Assembly (NCBI GenBank): GCA_021324045.1
Contig: JAJPJV010000037.1
Span: forward strand, 1-64,000
Direction: 5' to 3'
From: Actinomycetota bacterium
GTDB taxonomy: Bacteria > Actinomycetota > Acidimicrobiia > Acidimicrobiales > RAAP-2
Length of the DNA stretch: 64,000 nucleotides
Below, one piece after another: positions 17,538 to 31,683 of this stretch. Position 1 is the first letter of the stretch. Each line of letters opens with the position of its first letter. The notes beneath the pieces are model-generated. The model worked only from the letters and a program-made list of their open reading frames with translations, made no database searches and was not told the origin of the DNA. The position numbers and the translations under genes are program-made.

Positions 17538-20018
17538 GTGCCCTGGTCCGCGCCCGACCGTCGGTGCCACACTCGACCGGTGGAAATCCCCACGGGCGGA
17601 GCGACCAGTTCCGGTGCCGACGATGCCGACCCACCGAGCGCGGTCGGTGGCGAGGAACCCGGTAGTGACGCGGCGACGGCCACCCGCCTCGTCGGCGCAC
17701 CCCGAGGACTGACCGAAGCCGAAGCCGCAGATCGCTTCGCCCGTTTCGGACCCAATGCCCTGCCGGCCGAGCGCCGCCACCTGCTGCGCCGGCTCGCCTC
17801 CAAGCTCACCGGCCCGGTGCCATACCTGCTCGAGGTGGCCGTGGTCTTGGAGTTGGCAACTGGCAAGGTCACTGAGGCGGTGATCATCAGCGCCTTGGTC
17901 GTCTTCAACGGCGTGCTCAGCTTCGTCCAGGAGGGAAGGGCCGCGAACGCCCTCTCGCTGCTGCGGAGTCGGCTGGCCATCCGTGCCCGGGTCTGCCGCG
18001 ACGCTCGCTGGCAGCTCATCGACGCCGAGCGGCTCGTTCCCGGCGACGTCGTCCACATCCGAGTCGGCGACATCGTTCCCGCTGATCTCGTCGTCAGTGA
18101 CGGCACCGTTTCGGTCGACCAGTCGGTGTTGACCGGCGAATCGGCCGACGTCGAGGTGCTCCCAGGCGGCACCTGCTACTCGGGATCGATCGTGCGCCGC
18201 GGAGAAGCAACCGGTGAGGTGCGCGCAACCGGTGCACGCACCTACTTCGGCCACACGGCCCAGCTGATGCGCACCGCCAAAACCGCCAGCCACCTCGAAG
18301 AGACGATCTTTGCGATCGTCTGGGCGCTGCTGGCACTGGACGGCGCGCTGGTCGTCGCGATCATCGTCTACGGCCTCGTGACCCACCTGCCCGCCAGCGA
18401 GCTGCTCCCCTTCGTCCTCATCCTCGTCGTGGCCACCGTTCCGGTGGCCTTGCCCGCCACCTTCACCCTCGCCACCTCGGTCGGCGCACTCGAGCTGGCT
18501 CGAGCCGGGGTGCTCGTCACCCACCTTTCCGCCATCGAAGAAGCTGCCGCCATGGACCTGCTGTGCACGGACAAGACCGGGACCATCACCGAGAACCGTC
18601 TGTCGGTCGTCGGGGTCCGCCCCTTCGCCCCGCACACCGATGCCGAGGTGCTCGCGCTCGCGGCGGCTGCCTCCGACGAGGCCACCCAGGATCCCATCGA
18701 CCTTGCGGTCTTGCAGGCCGCAACGGCCGTGGCCGCCCCGAAGCCAGGCCGTCGCCGCGCATTCGTCCCCTTTGACCCGTCGACGAAGCGTTCCGAAGCG
18801 ACGGTCGACGTCGACGGCGCCGCGCTGCGGGTCATGAAGGGCACCCCCGCCGTGCTGGCCGCCCTGGCCCAGGAGCCGGCGGCGGATCTGCCCGGAGCGG
18901 TCGAGGAGCTCGCCTCCAGCGGCGCTCGGGTGCTCGCGGTCGCCAAAGGGGACCAGCGGCTCGAGGTGACCGGCCTCCTCGCCCTGGGCGACCCGGTCCG
19001 GACGGATTCCGCGACCCTCGTGAGACACCTCAAGGATCTCGGGATCCGGGTGGTGATGGTGACCGGAGACGCCGCCCCCACCGCGGTAGCGGTGGCCCGC
19101 CAGGTCGGGATCGGCGAACGCGTCGGATCGGTCGAAGACCTCCGCACCGGCCGGGACGGCGAGATCGACTTCGACGTCGTCGCCGGCGTGCTCCCCGAAG
19201 ACAAGCTGTCGCTGGTCGAGCGCGGGCAACGCGCGGGGCACGTCGTTGGCATGACCGGCGATGGGGTCAACGACGCCCCGGCCCTCAAGCGCGCCGAGGT
19301 CGGGATCGCGGTCTCCACCGCCACCGACGTCGCCAAGGGAGCGGCCAGCCTGGTCCTCACCCAAGAAGGGCTCTCCAACATCGTCACCGCGGTGGAAACC
19401 GGTCGCCGCGTCTACCAACGGATGCTGACCTACACCTTGAACAAGATCGCCAAGACCTTCCAGGTGTCCTTGTTCCTCGGGCTCGGACTGCTCGCCACCG
19501 GGTCCTTCGTCACGACCCCGCGCTTGGTGTTGCTCCTTTTGTTCGCCAACGACTTCGTCACCATGTCGCTCGCCACCGACCGGGTCGGGTTCTCCCCCCG
19601 CCCTGACCGCTGGCGGATCCCCGCGCTCTCCCTCGCCGCCCTCGCGGTGGCGGTCCCTTGGCTCGCCGTTGCCTTCGCCACCTTCTCGATCGGACGCCAC
19701 GTGCTCGGCCTGGACCTGGCCTCCACCCAGACCCTGGTCTTCGTGATGCTGGTGGCGACCGGTCAGGCCACCATCTACCTGGTGCGAGAACGACGCCATG
19801 TCTGGGCGTCGCGTCCGAGCACCTGGATGCTGGGCGCGACCGTTGCCGATCTGGTCCTGGTGACGATCTTCGCCACCCGAGGGATCCTCATGGCTGCCGT
19901 GCCCCTGGTCGACGTCGGCGTCCTTCTGGCAACCGTGCTCGTCGCCACTGCAGTCTTGGACCTCGTCAAGGCCCCGCTGCTCACCAGGGTCCGCTCCGAC
20001 ACCGCACCCGCTCCGTGA
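17538..20018 (+). CDS. Plasma-membrane-type H+-transporting P-type ATPase (P3A)
   Basis: Up to 826 aa. It couples ATP hydrolysis to proton export. Order of motifs: N-terminal GLTEAEAADRFARFGPNAL, first helix pair, actuator loop with TGES (SVLTGESADVEV), helix 4 PVALPATFTLATSVGA, phosphorylation site CTDKTGT (Asp 345 counted from 17538), nucleotide domain with FDPSTKRSEATV and MKGTP, hinge TGDGVNDAPALK, then the C-terminal helices. The PVALP and KRSEATV forms fit P3A proton pumps rather than metal or calcium pumps. Both GTG 17538 and GTG 17580 are possible starts; neither has a clear ribosome site. P3A pumps in bacteria are found mainly in acid-tolerant lineages. Confidence 0.9.
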   Translation: MPWSAPDRRCHTRPVEIPTGGATSSGADDADPPSAVGGEEPGSDAATATRLVGAPRGLTEAEAADRFARFGPNALPAERRHLLRRLASKLTGPVPYLLEVAVVLELATGKVTEAVIISALVVFNGVLSFVQEGRAANALSLLRSRLAIRARVCRDARWQLIDAERLVPGDVVHIRVGDIVPADLVVSDGTVSVDQSVLTGESADVEVLPGGTCYSGSIVRRGEATGEVRATGARTYFGHTAQLMRTAKTASHLEETIFAIVWALLALDGALVVAIIVYGLVTHLPASELLPFVLILVVATVPVALPATFTLATSVGALELARAGVLVTHLSAIEEAAAMDLLCTDKTGTITENRLSVVGVRPFAPHTDAEVLALAAAASDEATQDPIDLAVLQAATAVAAPKPGRRRAFVPFDPSTKRSEATVDVDGAALRVMKGTPAVLAALAQEPAADLPGAVEELASSGARVLAVAKGDQRLEVTGLLALGDPVRTDSATLVRHLKDLGIRVVMVTGDAAPTAVAVARQVGIGERVGSVEDLRTGRDGEIDFDVVAGVLPEDKLSLVERGQRAGHVVGMTGDGVNDAPALKRAEVGIAVSTATDVAKGAASLVLTQEGLSNIVTAVETGRRVYQRMLTYTLNKIAKTFQVSLFLGLGLLATGSFVTTPRLVLLLLFANDFVTMSLATDRVGFSPRPDRWRIPALSLAALAVAVPWLAVAFATFSIGRHVLGLDLASTQTLVFVMLVATGQATIYLVRERRHVWASRPSTWMLGATVADLVLVTIFATRGILMAAVPLVDVGVLLATVLVATAVLDLVKAPLLTRVRSDTAPAP

Positions 20019-20088: not shown

Positions 20089-20289
20089 ATGCCCCGGCAT
20101 CATGATGAGGAGGGCACCATCTCCAGTCCGCAGGGGCGTTCCGTTGGAACGACCGCACGTATGCGGCACGACCAGGCCAAGCACTTCGAGGACAACGATG
20201 CCAACCGCCACAGTGCCGACCTCGCCGCGCTCGACACGACCATCACGCGCCTTTTCGCCCAGGAGGCCTGGCATGCCCCCGTGGTCTGA
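20089..20289 (+). CDS. Possible small hypothetical protein
   Basis: 66 codons from ATG 20089, or 42 codons from ATG 20161 (MRHDQAKHFEDND). Third codon positions are strongly G/C from about 20160 onward, as in real genes here. The peptide is hydrophilic, His- and Asp-rich, without membrane helix or known motif. It lies in the 307-base gap between the H+-ATPase and the His-rich transporter gene; the rest of that gap shows nothing. I cannot assign a function and it may be chance. Confidence 0.3.
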   Translation: MPRHHDEEGTISSPQGRSVGTTARMRHDQAKHFEDNDANRHSADLAALDTTITRLFAQEAWHAPVV

Positions 20290-20325: not shown

Positions 20326-21411
20326 ATGCTGGCGAGCGGGCCGCTCGTAGCCCTCGACCTGTGGAACCCGCATACCGGCCTCGCCCTGTGGGCGGTCCTG
20401 GTGACCGCGTTCCTGCTTGGGATGGTGCACGGGATCACCCCGGACGAGCACACCTGGCCGATCACCTTCTCCTACGCGGTGGGCGGCTACTCGAGCCGGG
20501 CCGGGATGCGCAATGCCCTCATCTTCTCCCTGGCCTTCACCCTCCAGCGGGCACTTGGGAGCGAGCTCGCGTACTTCGCCCTGGCGCGCTTTCTGACCCT
20601 GGGCTCGCGAGGCGACTACATCGTCTATGTGGTCGTCGGGGTCGCGATGCTCTGGGCGGCGCGCTACATCCACGGCGGTCGGCTTCCCTGGCACTTCGAC
20701 TTCCACGTCCACGTACGCCCGAGGCGCGCGCAGGACCTCCCAACCGCGCCCGCTGGCGGCGGAGAGGCCACCGCCGAAGGACGCTCGCCGATGCCCGCAG
20801 ACACGAGCGGGGATGGCGTGCACCTCCATGCCCACGCTCACGGCGGCGTTGCGCTGGCTCCGCCACCACACTGGTCGAAGGACCCCTGCACAGATTGCCA
20901 CGAGCCTGACCTCGCCGATCCGAGGCCCTGGATGCCCGCGCTCCACGGCTTCATCGCCGGCTGGGGCTTCGGTGCGTTCGCCGTCATCGTCTATACCGTG
21001 CTCGCCCCCGAGATGCCCTCGGCAGCCGTCGGGTGGGTGCCGGGGGCGCTGTTCGGTCTCGGGACGACGGCCGTCCAGGTCATGGTGGGCGGGCTCGTCG
21101 GCTGGCTCGTACGGCGCAAGGGCGCGACCCCAGAGGTCACCCGCCGGATCGGGCTCATCGTCGCCGCGCGCACCCTTGGCGTCGGTGGGATCGCCTTCGT
21201 GGTGGGCGGGCTCTTCGGCATCGCCTTCCCCCACGTCGCCGGACTGACCATCTCGACCGGGGTCCACGTTCACAACCTCGACCACCTCGGACTCCCCCTC
21301 GTGCTGGTCGTCGTCTCCGTCGCCGGCGTGGGCGTGGGTTCATTGATCACCGAGCTGCGCCGGATCCCCAAGTCCCCTCGGACGCGACAACGTGACTCGA
21401 AGGGACCCTGA
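20326..21411 (+). CDS. His-rich NicO/UreH-like membrane transporter
   Basis: 361 aa, six or more membrane helices in two halves. Helix 1 carries HGITPDEHTWP (H35, D40, H42), close to the H-x4-D-H nickel/cobalt transporter signature and the PDH motif of UreH/SafE-like proteins, but with an extra Glu between Asp and His. A long cytoplasmic or external loop (about 125-205) contains VHLHAHAHGG and CTDCHEPD, a likely metal-binding patch. The second half begins WMPALHGFIAGWGFGAF. Probable role: transport of a divalent metal such as Ni, Co or Fe. The substrate is inferred. It is followed closely by a DUF2892 gene. Confidence 0.65.
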   Translation: MLASGPLVALDLWNPHTGLALWAVLVTAFLLGMVHGITPDEHTWPITFSYAVGGYSSRAGMRNALIFSLAFTLQRALGSELAYFALARFLTLGSRGDYIVYVVVGVAMLWAARYIHGGRLPWHFDFHVHVRPRRAQDLPTAPAGGGEATAEGRSPMPADTSGDGVHLHAHAHGGVALAPPPHWSKDPCTDCHEPDLADPRPWMPALHGFIAGWGFGAFAVIVYTVLAPEMPSAAVGWVPGALFGLGTTAVQVMVGGLVGWLVRRKGATPEVTRRIGLIVAARTLGVGGIAFVVGGLFGIAFPHVAGLTISTGVHVHNLDHLGLPLVLVVVSVAGVGVGSLITELRRIPKSPRTRQRDSKGP

Positions 21412-21484
21412 CCAGCAGCTGTATCCCTCCTGGCCGCTCGTGCGTCTAAGGACGTGAAAAGCTCATCGAGCAAAGGAGCAGGCG

Positions 21485-21736
21485 ATGAAACAGAACGTGG
21501 GAACGATCGATCGGGCTCTTCGCATCCTCGTGGCAGCTGGGGCGGTCGCCGGCGGCGGGGTGCTGGGGTTCTCGTCAGCAGGCGGGATCGTGCTGCTGGT
21601 CGTTGCAGGGGTGATGGTCCTCACTGCAGCCAGCGGGTACTGCCCCCTCTACCGCCTGTTGGGCATCACGACGAGGGGAATGCGCGAGCACACGGCTGTC
21701 GGACACCAGGGCTCACCCTTGCGCAAGGCAGCCTGA
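21485..21736 (+). CDS. DUF2892 (YgaP-type) small membrane protein
   Basis: 83 aa. It starts MKQNVGTIDRALRILVAAGA and has two hydrophobic segments ending LTAASGYCPLYRLLGI with the conserved CPLY motif; this is the DUF2892 family, often fused to or beside rhodanese and sulfur- or metal-stress genes. Ribosome site AAAGGAG at 21472-21478 fits ATG 21485. It sits between a putative metal transporter and an ECF sigma factor, suggesting a shared stress response. Exact function unknown. Confidence 0.85.
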   Translation: MKQNVGTIDRALRILVAAGAVAGGGVLGFSSAGGIVLLVVAGVMVLTAASGYCPLYRLLGITTRGMREHTAVGHQGSPLRKAA

Positions 21737-21785
21737 GGTACCTCCGCATTGTCGCGTGGCGACGGTACTCGGCAGACTGTGACGC

Positions 21786-22628
21786 GTGGGCAAGGACCCG
21801 GGGAGCAACGCTTCGAGCCTGGATCTCCCTGACTCGGTGGCGGCAGAGCTCCCCGGGTTGTATCGCTATGCCCGATCGATCACGCCGAACGAGGCAGAGG
21901 CAGAAGACCTCGTCGGCGACACGGTGGTGCGAGCGCTCGAACACGCCGCGCAGTACCGAGGGGAGGCGTCACTTCGCACCTGGCTCCATCAGATCCTCTC
22001 CCACCTGGCAGTCGATCGGGCTCGCCGCCACAGCCACGAGCTCAGCGTCGACGAAGTCGAGCGCCGTTGGCGCGACGAAACCTACAGCGTCGATGCCGAA
22101 CGAGTGGTCGAACGCGCCGAGTCGGCTGCAGAGCTTCGCGATGCGCTGGTGCATGTGCCGCACCATTACCGCAGCGCCCTCGTGCTCCACGACGCCGAAG
22201 GTTTCTCCGCGGCCGAGGTCGCAACCATTCTCGATGTCTCGGTCCCTGCGGCCAAACAGCGAATTCGGCGAGGGAGGATGATGCTCGTGAGCGCGCTTTC
22301 ACAACAAGCGCAGCGGCGGACGGCCAATGCCGGCGTGCCGCTCAGCTGCTGGGAGGCCCGGGAACAGGTATCGAGCTATCTCGACGACGAGCTCGATCCA
22401 GCACAACGTCGCACGCTCGAGGCCCATCTCGCCAGCTGCGCGACCTGTCCCCCCCTCTACCAGGCGCTCGTCGGCGCCATGTCCTCGCTCGGCCACCTCC
22501 ACGACCCCGACAGCGTGATCCCCCCCACACTTGCCGAACGCGTTCGGCGTCGTCTTGGCCTCGAGACCTCCGAGGGTGCGAAGGCCCCTGCCACGACCGG
22601 TCATCACCACCACGGGGGAATGGCATGA
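21786..22628 (+). CDS. ECF sigma factor fused to zinc anti-sigma domain
   Basis: 280 aa from GTG 21786. Sigma region 2 spans about residues 22-83 (LYRYARSITPNEAEAEDLV, RTWLHQILSHLAVDRAR). Sigma region 4 spans about 113-167 (LRDALVHVPHHYRSALVL, FSAAEVATILDVSVPAAKQRI). A ZAS-type zinc anti-sigma domain follows: C188, then H214-x3-C218-x2-C221, with the usual spacing of 25 residues between Cys and His. The C-terminus ends THE chain with HHHHGGMA after a linker. Normally sigma and anti-sigma are separate proteins; here they are one chain, so autoinhibition relieved by thiol oxidation or zinc loss is a reasonable inference. The stop overlaps the next start (ATGA at 22625-22628). Confidence 0.88.
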   Translation: MGKDPGSNASSLDLPDSVAAELPGLYRYARSITPNEAEAEDLVGDTVVRALEHAAQYRGEASLRTWLHQILSHLAVDRARRHSHELSVDEVERRWRDETYSVDAERVVERAESAAELRDALVHVPHHYRSALVLHDAEGFSAAEVATILDVSVPAAKQRIRRGRMMLVSALSQQAQRRTANAGVPLSCWEAREQVSSYLDDELDPAQRRTLEAHLASCATCPPLYQALVGAMSSLGHLHDPDSVIPPTLAERVRRRLGLETSEGAKAPATTGHHHHGGMA

Positions 22629-23314
22629 GTGAGCCAGAGTCCGACCTGGCGTCGCGACCGCTCCCTGATGACCCTGGCGACTTGGGCCGGCGGGTCGCGG
22701 CTCGTCGACGGGCGCTCGGCATGAGCGTTGAAGAGCTCGCGCGCCGGGCCGGAATGCACCCTGGATATCTGGAATATGTCGAGCATCACGCCGGCGCCCG
22801 ACCAAGTCCTGCTGCCTGTGCTCGCCTCGCCGGGGCACTGGAGACCAGCGTTTCCTGGCTCCGAGGCGGTGCCGAACGGACGCCAGACGAACCGTCGGGA
22901 TCCCCACCACAGCTCCTGGCACTCGACCGGTCCACGTCCCTCGAGCTGCTCCGTCCTGGCGGCGTGGGGCGGGCGGTCTTCGTCGAAGGAACGCGAGGGC
23001 CGGTCGCGCTCCCTGTTGACTTTCGGATGCTCGACGGCGCCATCGTCTTCCGCACGGGCGAAGGAGCGATCGCGCGCGCACTGCGCGCAGGGAGCCCGCT
23101 CGGCATCGAAGTTGATCACCTCGACGAAACGCTGGGGGAGGGGTGGAGCGTCCTCGTTTCAGGGGAGGCTGAGCTCGTTGACGACCCCGAGGTGGTGACA
23201 AGGATCGACGCACTGGGCCTCAAGCGTTGGGACGGCGATCACGACCTCGTGGTCCGCCTCGTGCCGGGCGAGGTCTCAGGGCGCCGGATTCGGCGCCACG
23301 AACCGACCGGTTGA
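22625..23314 (+). CDS. XRE-type HTH fused to PNPOx-like FMN-binding domain
   Basis: 229 aa. Residues about 18-78 form a Cro/CI helix-turn-helix (GRRVAARRRALGMSVEELARRAGMHPGYLEYVE). Residues about 100-225 match the pyridoxamine-phosphate-oxidase-like split barrel (RPGGVGRAVFVEG, ALPVDFRMLDGAIVFRTGEG, WSVLVSGEAELVDDPE). Many actinobacteria have such HTH-PNPOx fusions; the barrel may bind FMN, heme or F420. Its start overlaps the sigma factor stop by four bases, so the two are translationally coupled and probably regulate the same process. Confidence 0.85.
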   Translation: MSEPESDLASRPLPDDPGDLGRRVAARRRALGMSVEELARRAGMHPGYLEYVEHHAGARPSPAACARLAGALETSVSWLRGGAERTPDEPSGSPPQLLALDRSTSLELLRPGGVGRAVFVEGTRGPVALPVDFRMLDGAIVFRTGEGAIARALRAGSPLGIEVDHLDETLGEGWSVLVSGEAELVDDPEVVTRIDALGLKRWDGDHDLVVRLVPGEVSGRRIRRHEPTG

Positions 23315-23437
23315 CACGCGAGCCAGCGCGAGTGACGCCCGAGGTCCCAAAGAACCGCTGCGACCACTGGCAACGCACGTGGGTGGCAGCTTCGTGGGGA
23401 CCGATCTGATGGGACCGAAGGATCCGAACCACGGAAA

Positions 23438-24334
23438 ATGACGTTGCCTCGACTCGTGGCCCTCACGTCGGTGAGAGCTGCCGTCGCGTCGCCGCTCGGC
23501 TTTCTCATCGGGCTCTCCCTCGGTACCCTCGGTGGCGGCGGTTCCATTCTCGCGGTCCCCGCCCTCGTCTACGGTGCTGGACAGAGCGCGAGGTCCGCGA
23601 CCACGACCTCACTGCTCGTCGTTGGGACCACGGCCCTCGCCGGCATGGTCGGCCATCTGCGCGCCGGGCGCGTCCGGATCGGGGCTGGGCTCGTGTTCGG
23701 TCTGGCAGGGATCGGCGGATCCTTCGCCGGCTCGGTGCTGAACCATGCCGTCCCGAGCCACGTGCTGTTGCTCGCATTCGCCGGGCTCATGGCGCTTGCC
23801 GCGTGGCGCATGCATGGTCGCCACGACGAGACACCGTGCCATTGTGCTGAGCAGCTCCGAAACGTCGAGCGCCGGTCACGACCGCCGAGCGTTGCGTCGC
23901 CACGCGCGGGCGAAGACCCCCCGCCGGGTGTGGGCGAGACCCAACCCCAGCGTTCGGCTGCGCTCGAGCGCGCGCTGCGCGTCGTTGGGACGGGCACCGC
24001 CGTCGGTTTCCTGACCGGCTTCTTCGGTGTCGGAGGCGGCTTCGTCATCGTTCCGGGCCTCGTCCTCGCCCTGGGCTTCGACATGCCCGTTGCCGTCGGG
24101 ACCTCACTGTTGGTCATCGCGGTGAACTCCGCGGAAGCGCTTGCCTTCCGTCTCCCGTCCTCCCATATCGAGTGGAGCGTCGCCCTTGCCTTCACCTTCG
24201 CGGGACTGATCGGGGTCGTGCTCGGCGACCTCGTCGCCGGCCGGGTTCCCGCGGCGCGTTTGACAACGTGGTTCGTCTGGTTGCTCGTCGGCGTCGCGGC
24301 GTACACGGCTGCACAGTCGGCGGTGGCGCTCTGA
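23438..24334 (+). CDS. TauE/SafE-family sulfite/anion exporter
   Basis: 298 aa with about eight helices in two related halves. Half one: FLIGLSLGTLGGGGSILAVPALVY and TTTSLLVVGTTALAGMVGH. Half two: AVGFLTGFFGVGGGFVIVPGL and VGTSLLVIAVNSAEAL. These are the paired glycine-rich motifs of the TauE/SafE (DUF81) family, which exports sulfite, sulfoacetate or related anions. A hydrophilic loop (about 130-172) holds HGRHDETPCHC. It follows the HTH-PNPOx gene by 123 bases in the same direction, so it may be a target or member of that stress module. Confidence 0.88.
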   Translation: MTLPRLVALTSVRAAVASPLGFLIGLSLGTLGGGGSILAVPALVYGAGQSARSATTTSLLVVGTTALAGMVGHLRAGRVRIGAGLVFGLAGIGGSFAGSVLNHAVPSHVLLLAFAGLMALAAWRMHGRHDETPCHCAEQLRNVERRSRPPSVASPRAGEDPPPGVGETQPQRSAALERALRVVGTGTAVGFLTGFFGVGGGFVIVPGLVLALGFDMPVAVGTSLLVIAVNSAEALAFRLPSSHIEWSVALAFTFAGLIGVVLGDLVAGRVPAARLTTWFVWLLVGVAAYTAAQSAVAL

Positions 24335-24525: not shown

Positions 24526-25194
24526 ATGGCTGCGCAAACGAACACCACCAGCCCGGGCACGATGGTCGCAACCGCTGCCCGCTACCTCTTCGACGCCGGG
24601 GTGATGTCCCATGCAGGGCACGCCAATTTGAGCGCCCGACTGGCTGTCGACCGCTTTGCCCTGACCACGACCGGGATCGTGCGCGACTTGCATCCCGACC
24701 AAGTGGCGACCATCGATTTGCAGGGCCGTGTCCTCGAAGGCGAACTCTCTCCTGAGAACGCCGAGATCGTCGCCATGCATGCCGTCGTCTATCGCTCCCG
24801 GCCCGATGCGGGCGGGATCATCCATACGCACTCCCCCGCCGCCACCGGCTTCGCGCTGGCGAACAAGGAGCTCCCGTGCCGGGCCGAGCCGCTCCTGCGG
24901 TTCGGCCAGGCTGAGGCCATCCCAGTCGTCCCCTGGGGACCGCGAGGCTCAGAGATCTCGGTCCGCGCCATCGCGTCGGTCCTCGAGCAGCACCCGACGA
25001 CCTCAGCAGTGCTGCTCGCCAACCACGGGCTCCTTGCCTTCAGCACCGACCCCATGACCACAGCCCGCTTGGTCGTGGCCATCGAAGAAGCTGCCGAGGC
25101 AGAGATCGCCGCGACCGCGCTCGGTGGGGCCGTCGACTTCCCTCCGGGCGCGCTCGAACAGGTGCGCCGGTCGATGAACCAGGTCCGGTCGTGA
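24526..25194 (+). CDS. Class II aldolase/adducin-family protein
   Basis: 222 aa, usual fuculose-phosphate-aldolase size. GNLSAR appears as HANLSARL, the catalytic-acid region as SPENAEIVAMHAVVYRSRPD, the zinc histidines as GGIIHTHSPAATGFAL and the third as LLANHGLLAF. The family cleaves or forms aldols of sugar phosphates or related hydroxy-keto acids with a zinc cofactor. The substrate is unclear: no sugar kinase or isomerase is adjacent. A methyltransferase gene follows 76 bases downstream. Confidence 0.87.
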   Translation: MAAQTNTTSPGTMVATAARYLFDAGVMSHAGHANLSARLAVDRFALTTTGIVRDLHPDQVATIDLQGRVLEGELSPENAEIVAMHAVVYRSRPDAGGIIHTHSPAATGFALANKELPCRAEPLLRFGQAEAIPVVPWGPRGSEISVRAIASVLEQHPTTSAVLLANHGLLAFSTDPMTTARLVVAIEEAAEAEIAATALGGAVDFPPGALEQVRRSMNQVRS

Positions 25195-31499: not shown

Positions 31500-31575
31500 T
31501 GGCAGCCCCAACGGGATTCGAACCCGTGTCTCCACCTTGAGAGGGTGGTGTCCTTGGCCTCTAGACGATGGGGCC
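31500..31575 (-). tRNA. tRNA-Glu (anticodon CTC)
   Basis: Minus-strand cloverleaf of 76 nt with encoded CCA. The acceptor stem GGCCCCA pairs with TGGGGCT (one G-U pair at its end), discriminator G. The anticodon stem CCACC/GGTGG encloses CTCTCAA, giving anticodon CTC for GAG codons. The T loop reads GTTCGAATCC. It lies 36 bases downstream of tRNA-Gln and in the same direction as gltX. Confidence 0.95.
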
Positions 31576-31611
31576 GAGGAGCTGCACGCCCGGATGGACG
31601 CGCATCCTCAG

Positions 31612-31683
31612 CTCGGGGGGGAGGACTCGAACCCCCAATAGCAGGGCCAGAACCTGCCGTGTTGCCGATTACACCACCCCCGA
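31612..31683 (-). tRNA. tRNA-Gln (anticodon CTG)
   Basis: Minus-strand cloverleaf of 72 nt without encoded CCA. Acceptor TCGGGGG pairs perfectly with CCCCCGA, discriminator G. The D stem is GTGT/ACAC. The anticodon stem GCAGG/CCTGC encloses TTCTGGC, giving anticodon CTG for CAG codons. It begins only ten bases after the gltX stop codon. Confidence 0.95.

Follow-up and report, generated by a model that had tools for sequence, protein, structure and literature searches.

The 64,000-nucleotide stretch analysed here (the window), from contig JAJPJV010000037.1 of an Actinomycetota bacterium, carries at positions 20326-24334 five co-directional rightward genes: for a NicO-like membrane protein, a small DUF2892 membrane protein, an extracytoplasmic function (ECF) sigma factor fused to a zinc anti-sigma (ZAS) domain, a helix-turn-helix (HTH) protein with a PNPOx part (HTH-PNPOx), and a TauE/SafE exporter. 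An initial annotation had read them as a metal/sulfur stress module led by the sigma fusion, and a check of the open reading frames (ORFs) together with Pfam searches confirmed all five. The module interpretation found partial support, and comparison with relatives pointed to a stronger and simpler arrangement, a predicted circuit of the sigma factor, one promoter and the DUF2892 gene. This is probably a dedicated, self-contained zinc-thiol sigma switch with a near-single-gene regulon and DUF2892 as its effector, and with reactive sulfur or disulfide stress as the most likely signal. Such a compact one-component switch, a small core with strong comparative support, takes the place of a loosely defined five-gene module and would give DUF2892, a family that is very widespread but whose function is poorly known, both a regulator and a likely physiological context. 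The core comprises the following features:

21420 to 21446, forward strand: predicted ECF promoter, -35 TGTATCC and -10 CGTC, sequence TGTATCCCTCCTGGCCGCTCGTGCGTC
21485 to 21736, forward strand: DUF2892/YgaP-like transmembrane protein of 83 amino acids (PF11127) with a GxCPxY motif, the predicted main target of the sigma factor
21786 to 22628, forward strand: ECF sigma factor (sigma2 + sigma4) fused to a soluble ZAS/zf-HC2 domain in one ORF (PF04542 + PF08281 + PF13490)

The description of the third of these as an ECF sigma factor joined to a zinc anti-sigma domain, and as the core regulator of the locus, held up well. The protein has the sigma2 (PF04542, 56.9 bits) and sigma4 (PF08281, 44.9 bits) regions of a group IV ECF factor without sigma3, and its profile matches the SigE, SigH and SigW structures. 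Its C-terminus combines a zinc motif with a zf-HC2 profile match (PF13490, 39.5 bits), as expected of a ZAS domain, and matches the RslA structure 3hug_B. The predicted zinc ligands are Cys188, His214, Cys218 and Cys221; this C-H-C-C set is invariant among 46 aligned orthologues, and the motif C-x25-H-x3-C-x2-C occurs in every complete copy, being one residue longer in loci L058, L060 and L061. The suggestion that the fusion carries a likely redox or thiol sensor is supported. A transmembrane segment is absent from all of the orthologues (maximal 19-residue Kyte-Doolittle averages of 0.68-1.41), every one of which ends soon after the ZAS domain. Relatives of the fusion were found on about 59 contigs of metagenome-assembled genomes (MAGs) from Acidimicrobiia-like Actinobacteria and Chloroflexi, a count that leaves aside three further weak matches, which are ordinary ECF factors. 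A frameshift or assembly artefact is ruled out, because the same fusion is intact in about 60 contigs. Samples of 298 genomes from the window's order and of 396 from its phylum contained it in 23 and 6 cases, respectively.

The partner of the sigma factor is equally well defined, its assignment to DUF2892 being upheld by a PF11127 match of 66.3 bits (gathering cut-off 25.3), the sole match to that family in the window's own genome. Soluble sigma-ZAS protein and DUF2892 membrane protein together form a conserved core at 73 distinct loci in Acidimicrobiia-like Actinobacteria and Chloroflexi. The two genes directly adjoin one another in nearly all of them, usually with the sigma gene downstream and in the same direction; in L059, L062, L063 and L092 a thioredoxin-family gene sits between them. 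Cys53-Pro54 is conserved in 74 of 74 DUF2892 ORFs, which were chosen with a CP-motif filter. Judged by title and abstract, none of four papers found to mention DUF2892 has a sigma factor as its topic.

What ties the two genes into a circuit is the promoter. Conserved motifs had been proposed for the regions before 20326, 21485 and 23438, and one was found before 21485, directly upstream of DUF2892, in the bipartite form TGTATCc-N16-CGTC; no copy precedes the NicO-like or TauE gene of the window, even at a tolerance of two mismatches. A dyad search upstream of DUF2892 recovered GTATC-N17-CGTC in 49 of 51 loci, and shuffled sequence gave at most five for any 4-mer dyad. The extended consensus reads aTGTATC(C/G)(A/C)T-N14-CGTC(T/C), of which the -10 element CGTC is common to many ECF promoters (PMC3426412). 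The promoter lies directly before DUF2892 in 65 of the 73 distinct (non-redundant) loci, and several of the remaining eight are cut contigs or filter misses. Among called genes it was found in 48 of 50 DUF2892 upstream regions versus 2 of 545 others; because the loci are related, the Fisher P of 9e-66 makes this evidence look stronger than it is.

Three further observations are independent of inherited synteny. The family formed by L048, L049 and L052 has the sigma gene before DUF2892, and the motif lies between the genes, in front of DUF2892. The strict motif also precedes Pfam-confirmed DUF2892 genes unlinked to the sigma gene (G110 C15, G114 C138, G624 C178 and, with a divergent DUF2892, G697 C62). 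Scans of 49 whole sigma-bearing genomes gave 54 strict matches, about 40 of them before DUF2892, and in sigma-less genomes none of 23 matches precedes DUF2892, most lying inside long ORFs. At the level of sequence, the sigma factor and a single type of promoter, placed immediately ahead of the DUF2892 gene, are found together. The window's own genome has one copy of the TGTATC form, at the core promoter, and matches in the window with up to two mismatches (13, versus 8.9 expected) are no more than chance. A second copy in L068, on the other strand, precedes a carboxymuconolactone decarboxylase (CMD)-methyltransferase protein. An informative exception is genome G699 (locus L089), in which the sigma gene lacks an adjoining DUF2892 and PF11127 was not detected in the genome; there a full-consensus promoter copy precedes a gene (L089:9289-11013, reverse strand) for a 574-residue Pyr_redox_2 + rhodanese protein related to CoA-disulfide reductases (CoADR), a layout that is the CoADR/NADH persulfide reductase (Npsr) architecture (PMC7969121). 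The predicted target of the sigma factor is DUF2892 and not the two transporters.

Domain content, invariant zinc ligands, lack of a membrane segment and promoter-target association are established by these comparisons; from them we infer zinc binding, auto-inhibition, activation by thiol modification and positive autoregulation. With zinc on its four ligands, the ZAS domain would fold back on sigma2 and sigma4 and keep the sigma factor inactive. Modification of the CxxC thiols, either to a disulfide or by persulfide/sulfane sulfur, would release the zinc and free the sigma factor, which would then direct transcription of DUF2892 from its promoter. Given the usual order, with a co-directional sigma gene behind DUF2892, positive autoregulation of the circuit would result. 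As the effector, DUF2892 may act at the membrane by handling or passing on sulfane sulfur or thiol equivalents. The precedent is SigR-RsrA, in which there is likewise a soluble ZAS domain with a C/H/CxxC zinc site and the expected thiol chemistry; SigR and RsrA are two proteins with a broad thiol regulon, whereas here the same events would take place within one chain that has a near-single predicted target. The trio of sigma factor, promoter and target is concrete enough for one reporter experiment.

Several described ECF groups share parts of this design. ECF41, as in Ecf41 of B. licheniformis (PMC3426412), has a fused C-terminal regulatory domain, one dedicated adjoining target that often bears the operon promoter, and a bipartite promoter whose -10 is CGTC and whose two elements are some 16 bp apart. 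Its extension, however, is of the SnoaL type rather than zf-HC2/ZAS, its promoter (TGTCACA-n16-CGTC) has the -10 in common with ours but not the -35, TGTATCC here, and its targets are a carboxymuconolactone decarboxylase, oxidoreductase or epimerase rather than DUF2892. The SCO4117 type of ECF48, ECF52 and ECF53 (PMC8999054, PMC5826349) likewise joins an ECF sigma factor and a C-terminal ZAS/zf-HC2 domain in one chain, but those proteins run on into transmembrane helices and extracytoplasmic parts, and no such helix follows the ZAS domain here. The fusion may belong to ECF270 or ECF271, which the 2021 classification lists as soluble ZAS groups; the model member of ECF271 comes from Chloroflexi.

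The case for sulfur as the signal draws on several sources. The transmembrane part of E. coli YgaP is of the same family as DUF2892 (PF11127), and it is expression of ygaVP that responds to sulfide, by derepression (PMC9774250); YgaP has a fused rhodanese and the ArsR-type YgaV as its repressor, whereas DUF2892 here stands alone and is predicted to be activated by the sigma factor. A DUF2892 gene of Azospira is up about 10-fold during H2S oxidation (PMC5358917). To these are added the Npsr-type exception in G699 and the genes for TauE+DUF1634, rhodanese, TusA, DsrE and OsmC found beside Chloroflexi sigma loci. Some of this weighs the other way. Deletion of the Azospira gene affected H2S oxidation only slightly (PMC5358917), G699 is a single and possibly incomplete MAG, and TauE, rhodanese, TusA or DsrE neighbours occur at 12 of the 23 loci of one 70%-identity sigma cluster (Chloroflexi) and at none in the other 12 clusters, the window's TauE falling outside the gene cluster counted. 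To be set beside these are metal or K+ ATPases near the sigma loci L043, L045, L051 and L057, and an AlphaFold model of the sigma protein with a predicted template modelling score (pTM) of 0.42, in which the placement of the domains is unreliable; a Foldseek search with this model found sigma factors but no dependable arrangement of the domains. The sulfur-specific reading is moderate, because a single sigma cluster, from Chloroflexi, supplies its sulfur-transfer neighbours; a wider thiol-redox reading is also backed by the Actinobacterial thioredoxin-family cases. Of the metal/sulfur theme in the initial annotation, the thiol and sulfur half has counterparts in part of the relatives, and the metal half lacks recurrent support. 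Our fullest reading can be offered only tentatively: a sigma switch for reactive sulfur species that consists of one protein, has not been described before and is conserved in two phyla. In it a zinc-thiol domain would inhibit, in cis, the soluble ECF factor that carries it, and the regulon would be practically a single gene (DUF2892, or the Npsr-type persulfide reductase in one lineage).

Around the core lie the remaining genes of the original set and two that follow it:

20326 to 21411, forward strand: polytopic membrane protein, NicO-like, with a His/Cys-rich loop and a HGITPDEHTWPI signature; remotely of the DsbD_2/NicO-type superfamily, an accessory gene lying ahead of the sigma promoter
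22625 to 23314, forward strand: XRE-type HTH + Pyridox_ox_2 protein with a flavin mononucleotide (FMN)-binding fold (HTH_31/HTH_3 + PF12900), a lineage-specific operon passenger
23438 to 24334, forward strand: TauE/SafE exporter (PF01925, 158 bits), after a gap of 123 nucleotides; the possible operon end
24526 to 25194, forward strand: class II aldolase (PF00596), found directly after DUF2892-sigma in L029 and L047
25271 to 25933, forward strand: class I S-adenosylmethionine methyltransferase (PF13649/TehB-type matches); eight Chloroflexi loci have the same cluster immediately after the sigma gene

The first of these proteins does have the His/Cys-rich loop described for it (HLHAHAHGGV, DPCTDCHEPD). 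Its naming as a NicO/UreH-like transporter is a distant superfamily statement only, because the protein itself matches nothing in Pfam or NCBIfam and 5 of 11 aligned homologues match PF13386 DsbD_2 (best 2.5e-5); an AlphaFold model built from three sequences was set aside (pLDDT 50). Its family (homologues L127-L137), without a Pfam or NCBIfam name, has an invariant HGxTPDEHTWPITxSYA, occurs in 37 of the 298 genomes of the order, and comprises a long-loop and a short-loop subtype, the long one being His/Cys-rich. The gene adjoins the promoter and DUF2892 in few loci only (the window, L030 and G114/L173), and L055 has a C-terminal remnant of it there. The TauE/SafE assignment was borne out, as was translational coupling of HTH-PNPOx, the ATG of which overlaps the sigma TGA (ATGA at 22625-22628). 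HTH-PNPOx, whose PDB relatives are FMN-binding/PNPOx proteins, immediately follows the sigma gene in three loci only, those of the window, L030 and L032; a link in G125 (L138) was rejected, as an opposite-strand gene lies between them. Two homologues (L117:1138-1494 and L118:923-1279) adjoin DsrE-family genes (PF02635), hinting at an independent link of this regulator to sulfur metabolism. TauE of the window's type is beside a sigma locus in the window only, and different TauE+DUF1634 pairs, in two orientations, adjoin it in eight Chloroflexi loci (L071, L074, L075, L076, L080, L083, L086 and L090).

The original five-gene reading is that of a metal/sulfur module co-regulated by the sigma factor and the HTH-PNPOx protein. 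The shared direction, the ATGA coupling and L030, which has the window's order of NicO, DUF2892, sigma and HTH-PNPOx, speak for it. The gene set, sought in the 298 genomes of the order, is however not conserved as such. The nearest relative keeps four of the five genes; close homologues of the NicO-like gene (at least 70% identity) occur in 7 genomes and HTH-PNPOx in 15, against the 23 with the fusion, and are mostly unlinked to it. This, with the want of promoter copies before either transporter gene in the window, makes such a module very improbable. Since both occur unlinked in other genomes, NicO and HTH-PNPOx are separate genes that came to the window locus. The window operon would have gained the coupled HTH-PNPOx gene and perhaps TauE, with the NicO-like gene a neighbour upstream of the promoter.

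Another reading is a switch for metals: the C-terminal C/H/C/C domain would be a direct sensor of zinc, copper or some other metal, and it would control metal exporters encoded by its neighbours (NicO-like, TauE-like and P-type ATPase). CorE (ECF44, ECF238; PMC3107203) sets the precedent, being a soluble ECF factor that controls copper genes through a Cys-containing C-terminal sensor domain, with no partner anti-sigma known; moreover, the sigma gene is immediately followed by a Cd/Zn-family P1B ATPase gene in L045 and L051 and has a Cu ATPase upstream in L043, and the NicO-like neighbour has its His/Cys-rich loop. However, CorE has four invariant cysteines (181, 184, 192 and 194), an arrangement missing here, where only the ZAS-type C-x25-H-x3-C-x2-C is conserved. 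Metal genes are near few sigma loci, without recurrence across lineages, the NicO-like gene is upstream of the promoter, and no promoter was found directly before a metal gene in the sigma loci and sigma-bearing genomes scanned. The His-rich C-terminal tail of the sigma protein, considered as a metal sensor, was rejected, since no other orthologue than the window protein has it. We regard the metal reading as weak and unlikely. Quite unlikely, too, is that DUF2892 is the membrane anchor or anti-sigma partner and the real sensor, with ZAS a docking or purely structural module, despite the near-obligate pairing of a soluble sigma factor with one small membrane protein bearing a conserved Cys and the structural role of zinc in some anti-sigma domains (PMC7406223). 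In G699 the sigma-ZAS protein exists without a PF11127 match and its promoter precedes an enzyme, and in four genomes promoter-bearing DUF2892 genes are far from the sigma gene.

Sigma-70 promoters and intrinsic terminators gave no signal above shuffles in the region, and a small ORF at 20089-20289, in the gap between the NicO-like gene and an ATPase gene, was unmatched in all the relatives' loci compared. The ATPase (17538-20018) is a plasma-membrane H+-type P-ATPase (TIGR01647, 633 bits) with 78% identity to an ATPase lying before the sigma locus in L029; the P-type ATPases near the sigma locus in L043, L045, L051 and L057 have 30-37% identity to it. On the reverse strand, 31500-31683 holds adjoining tRNA genes for Glu(ctc) and Gln(ctg).

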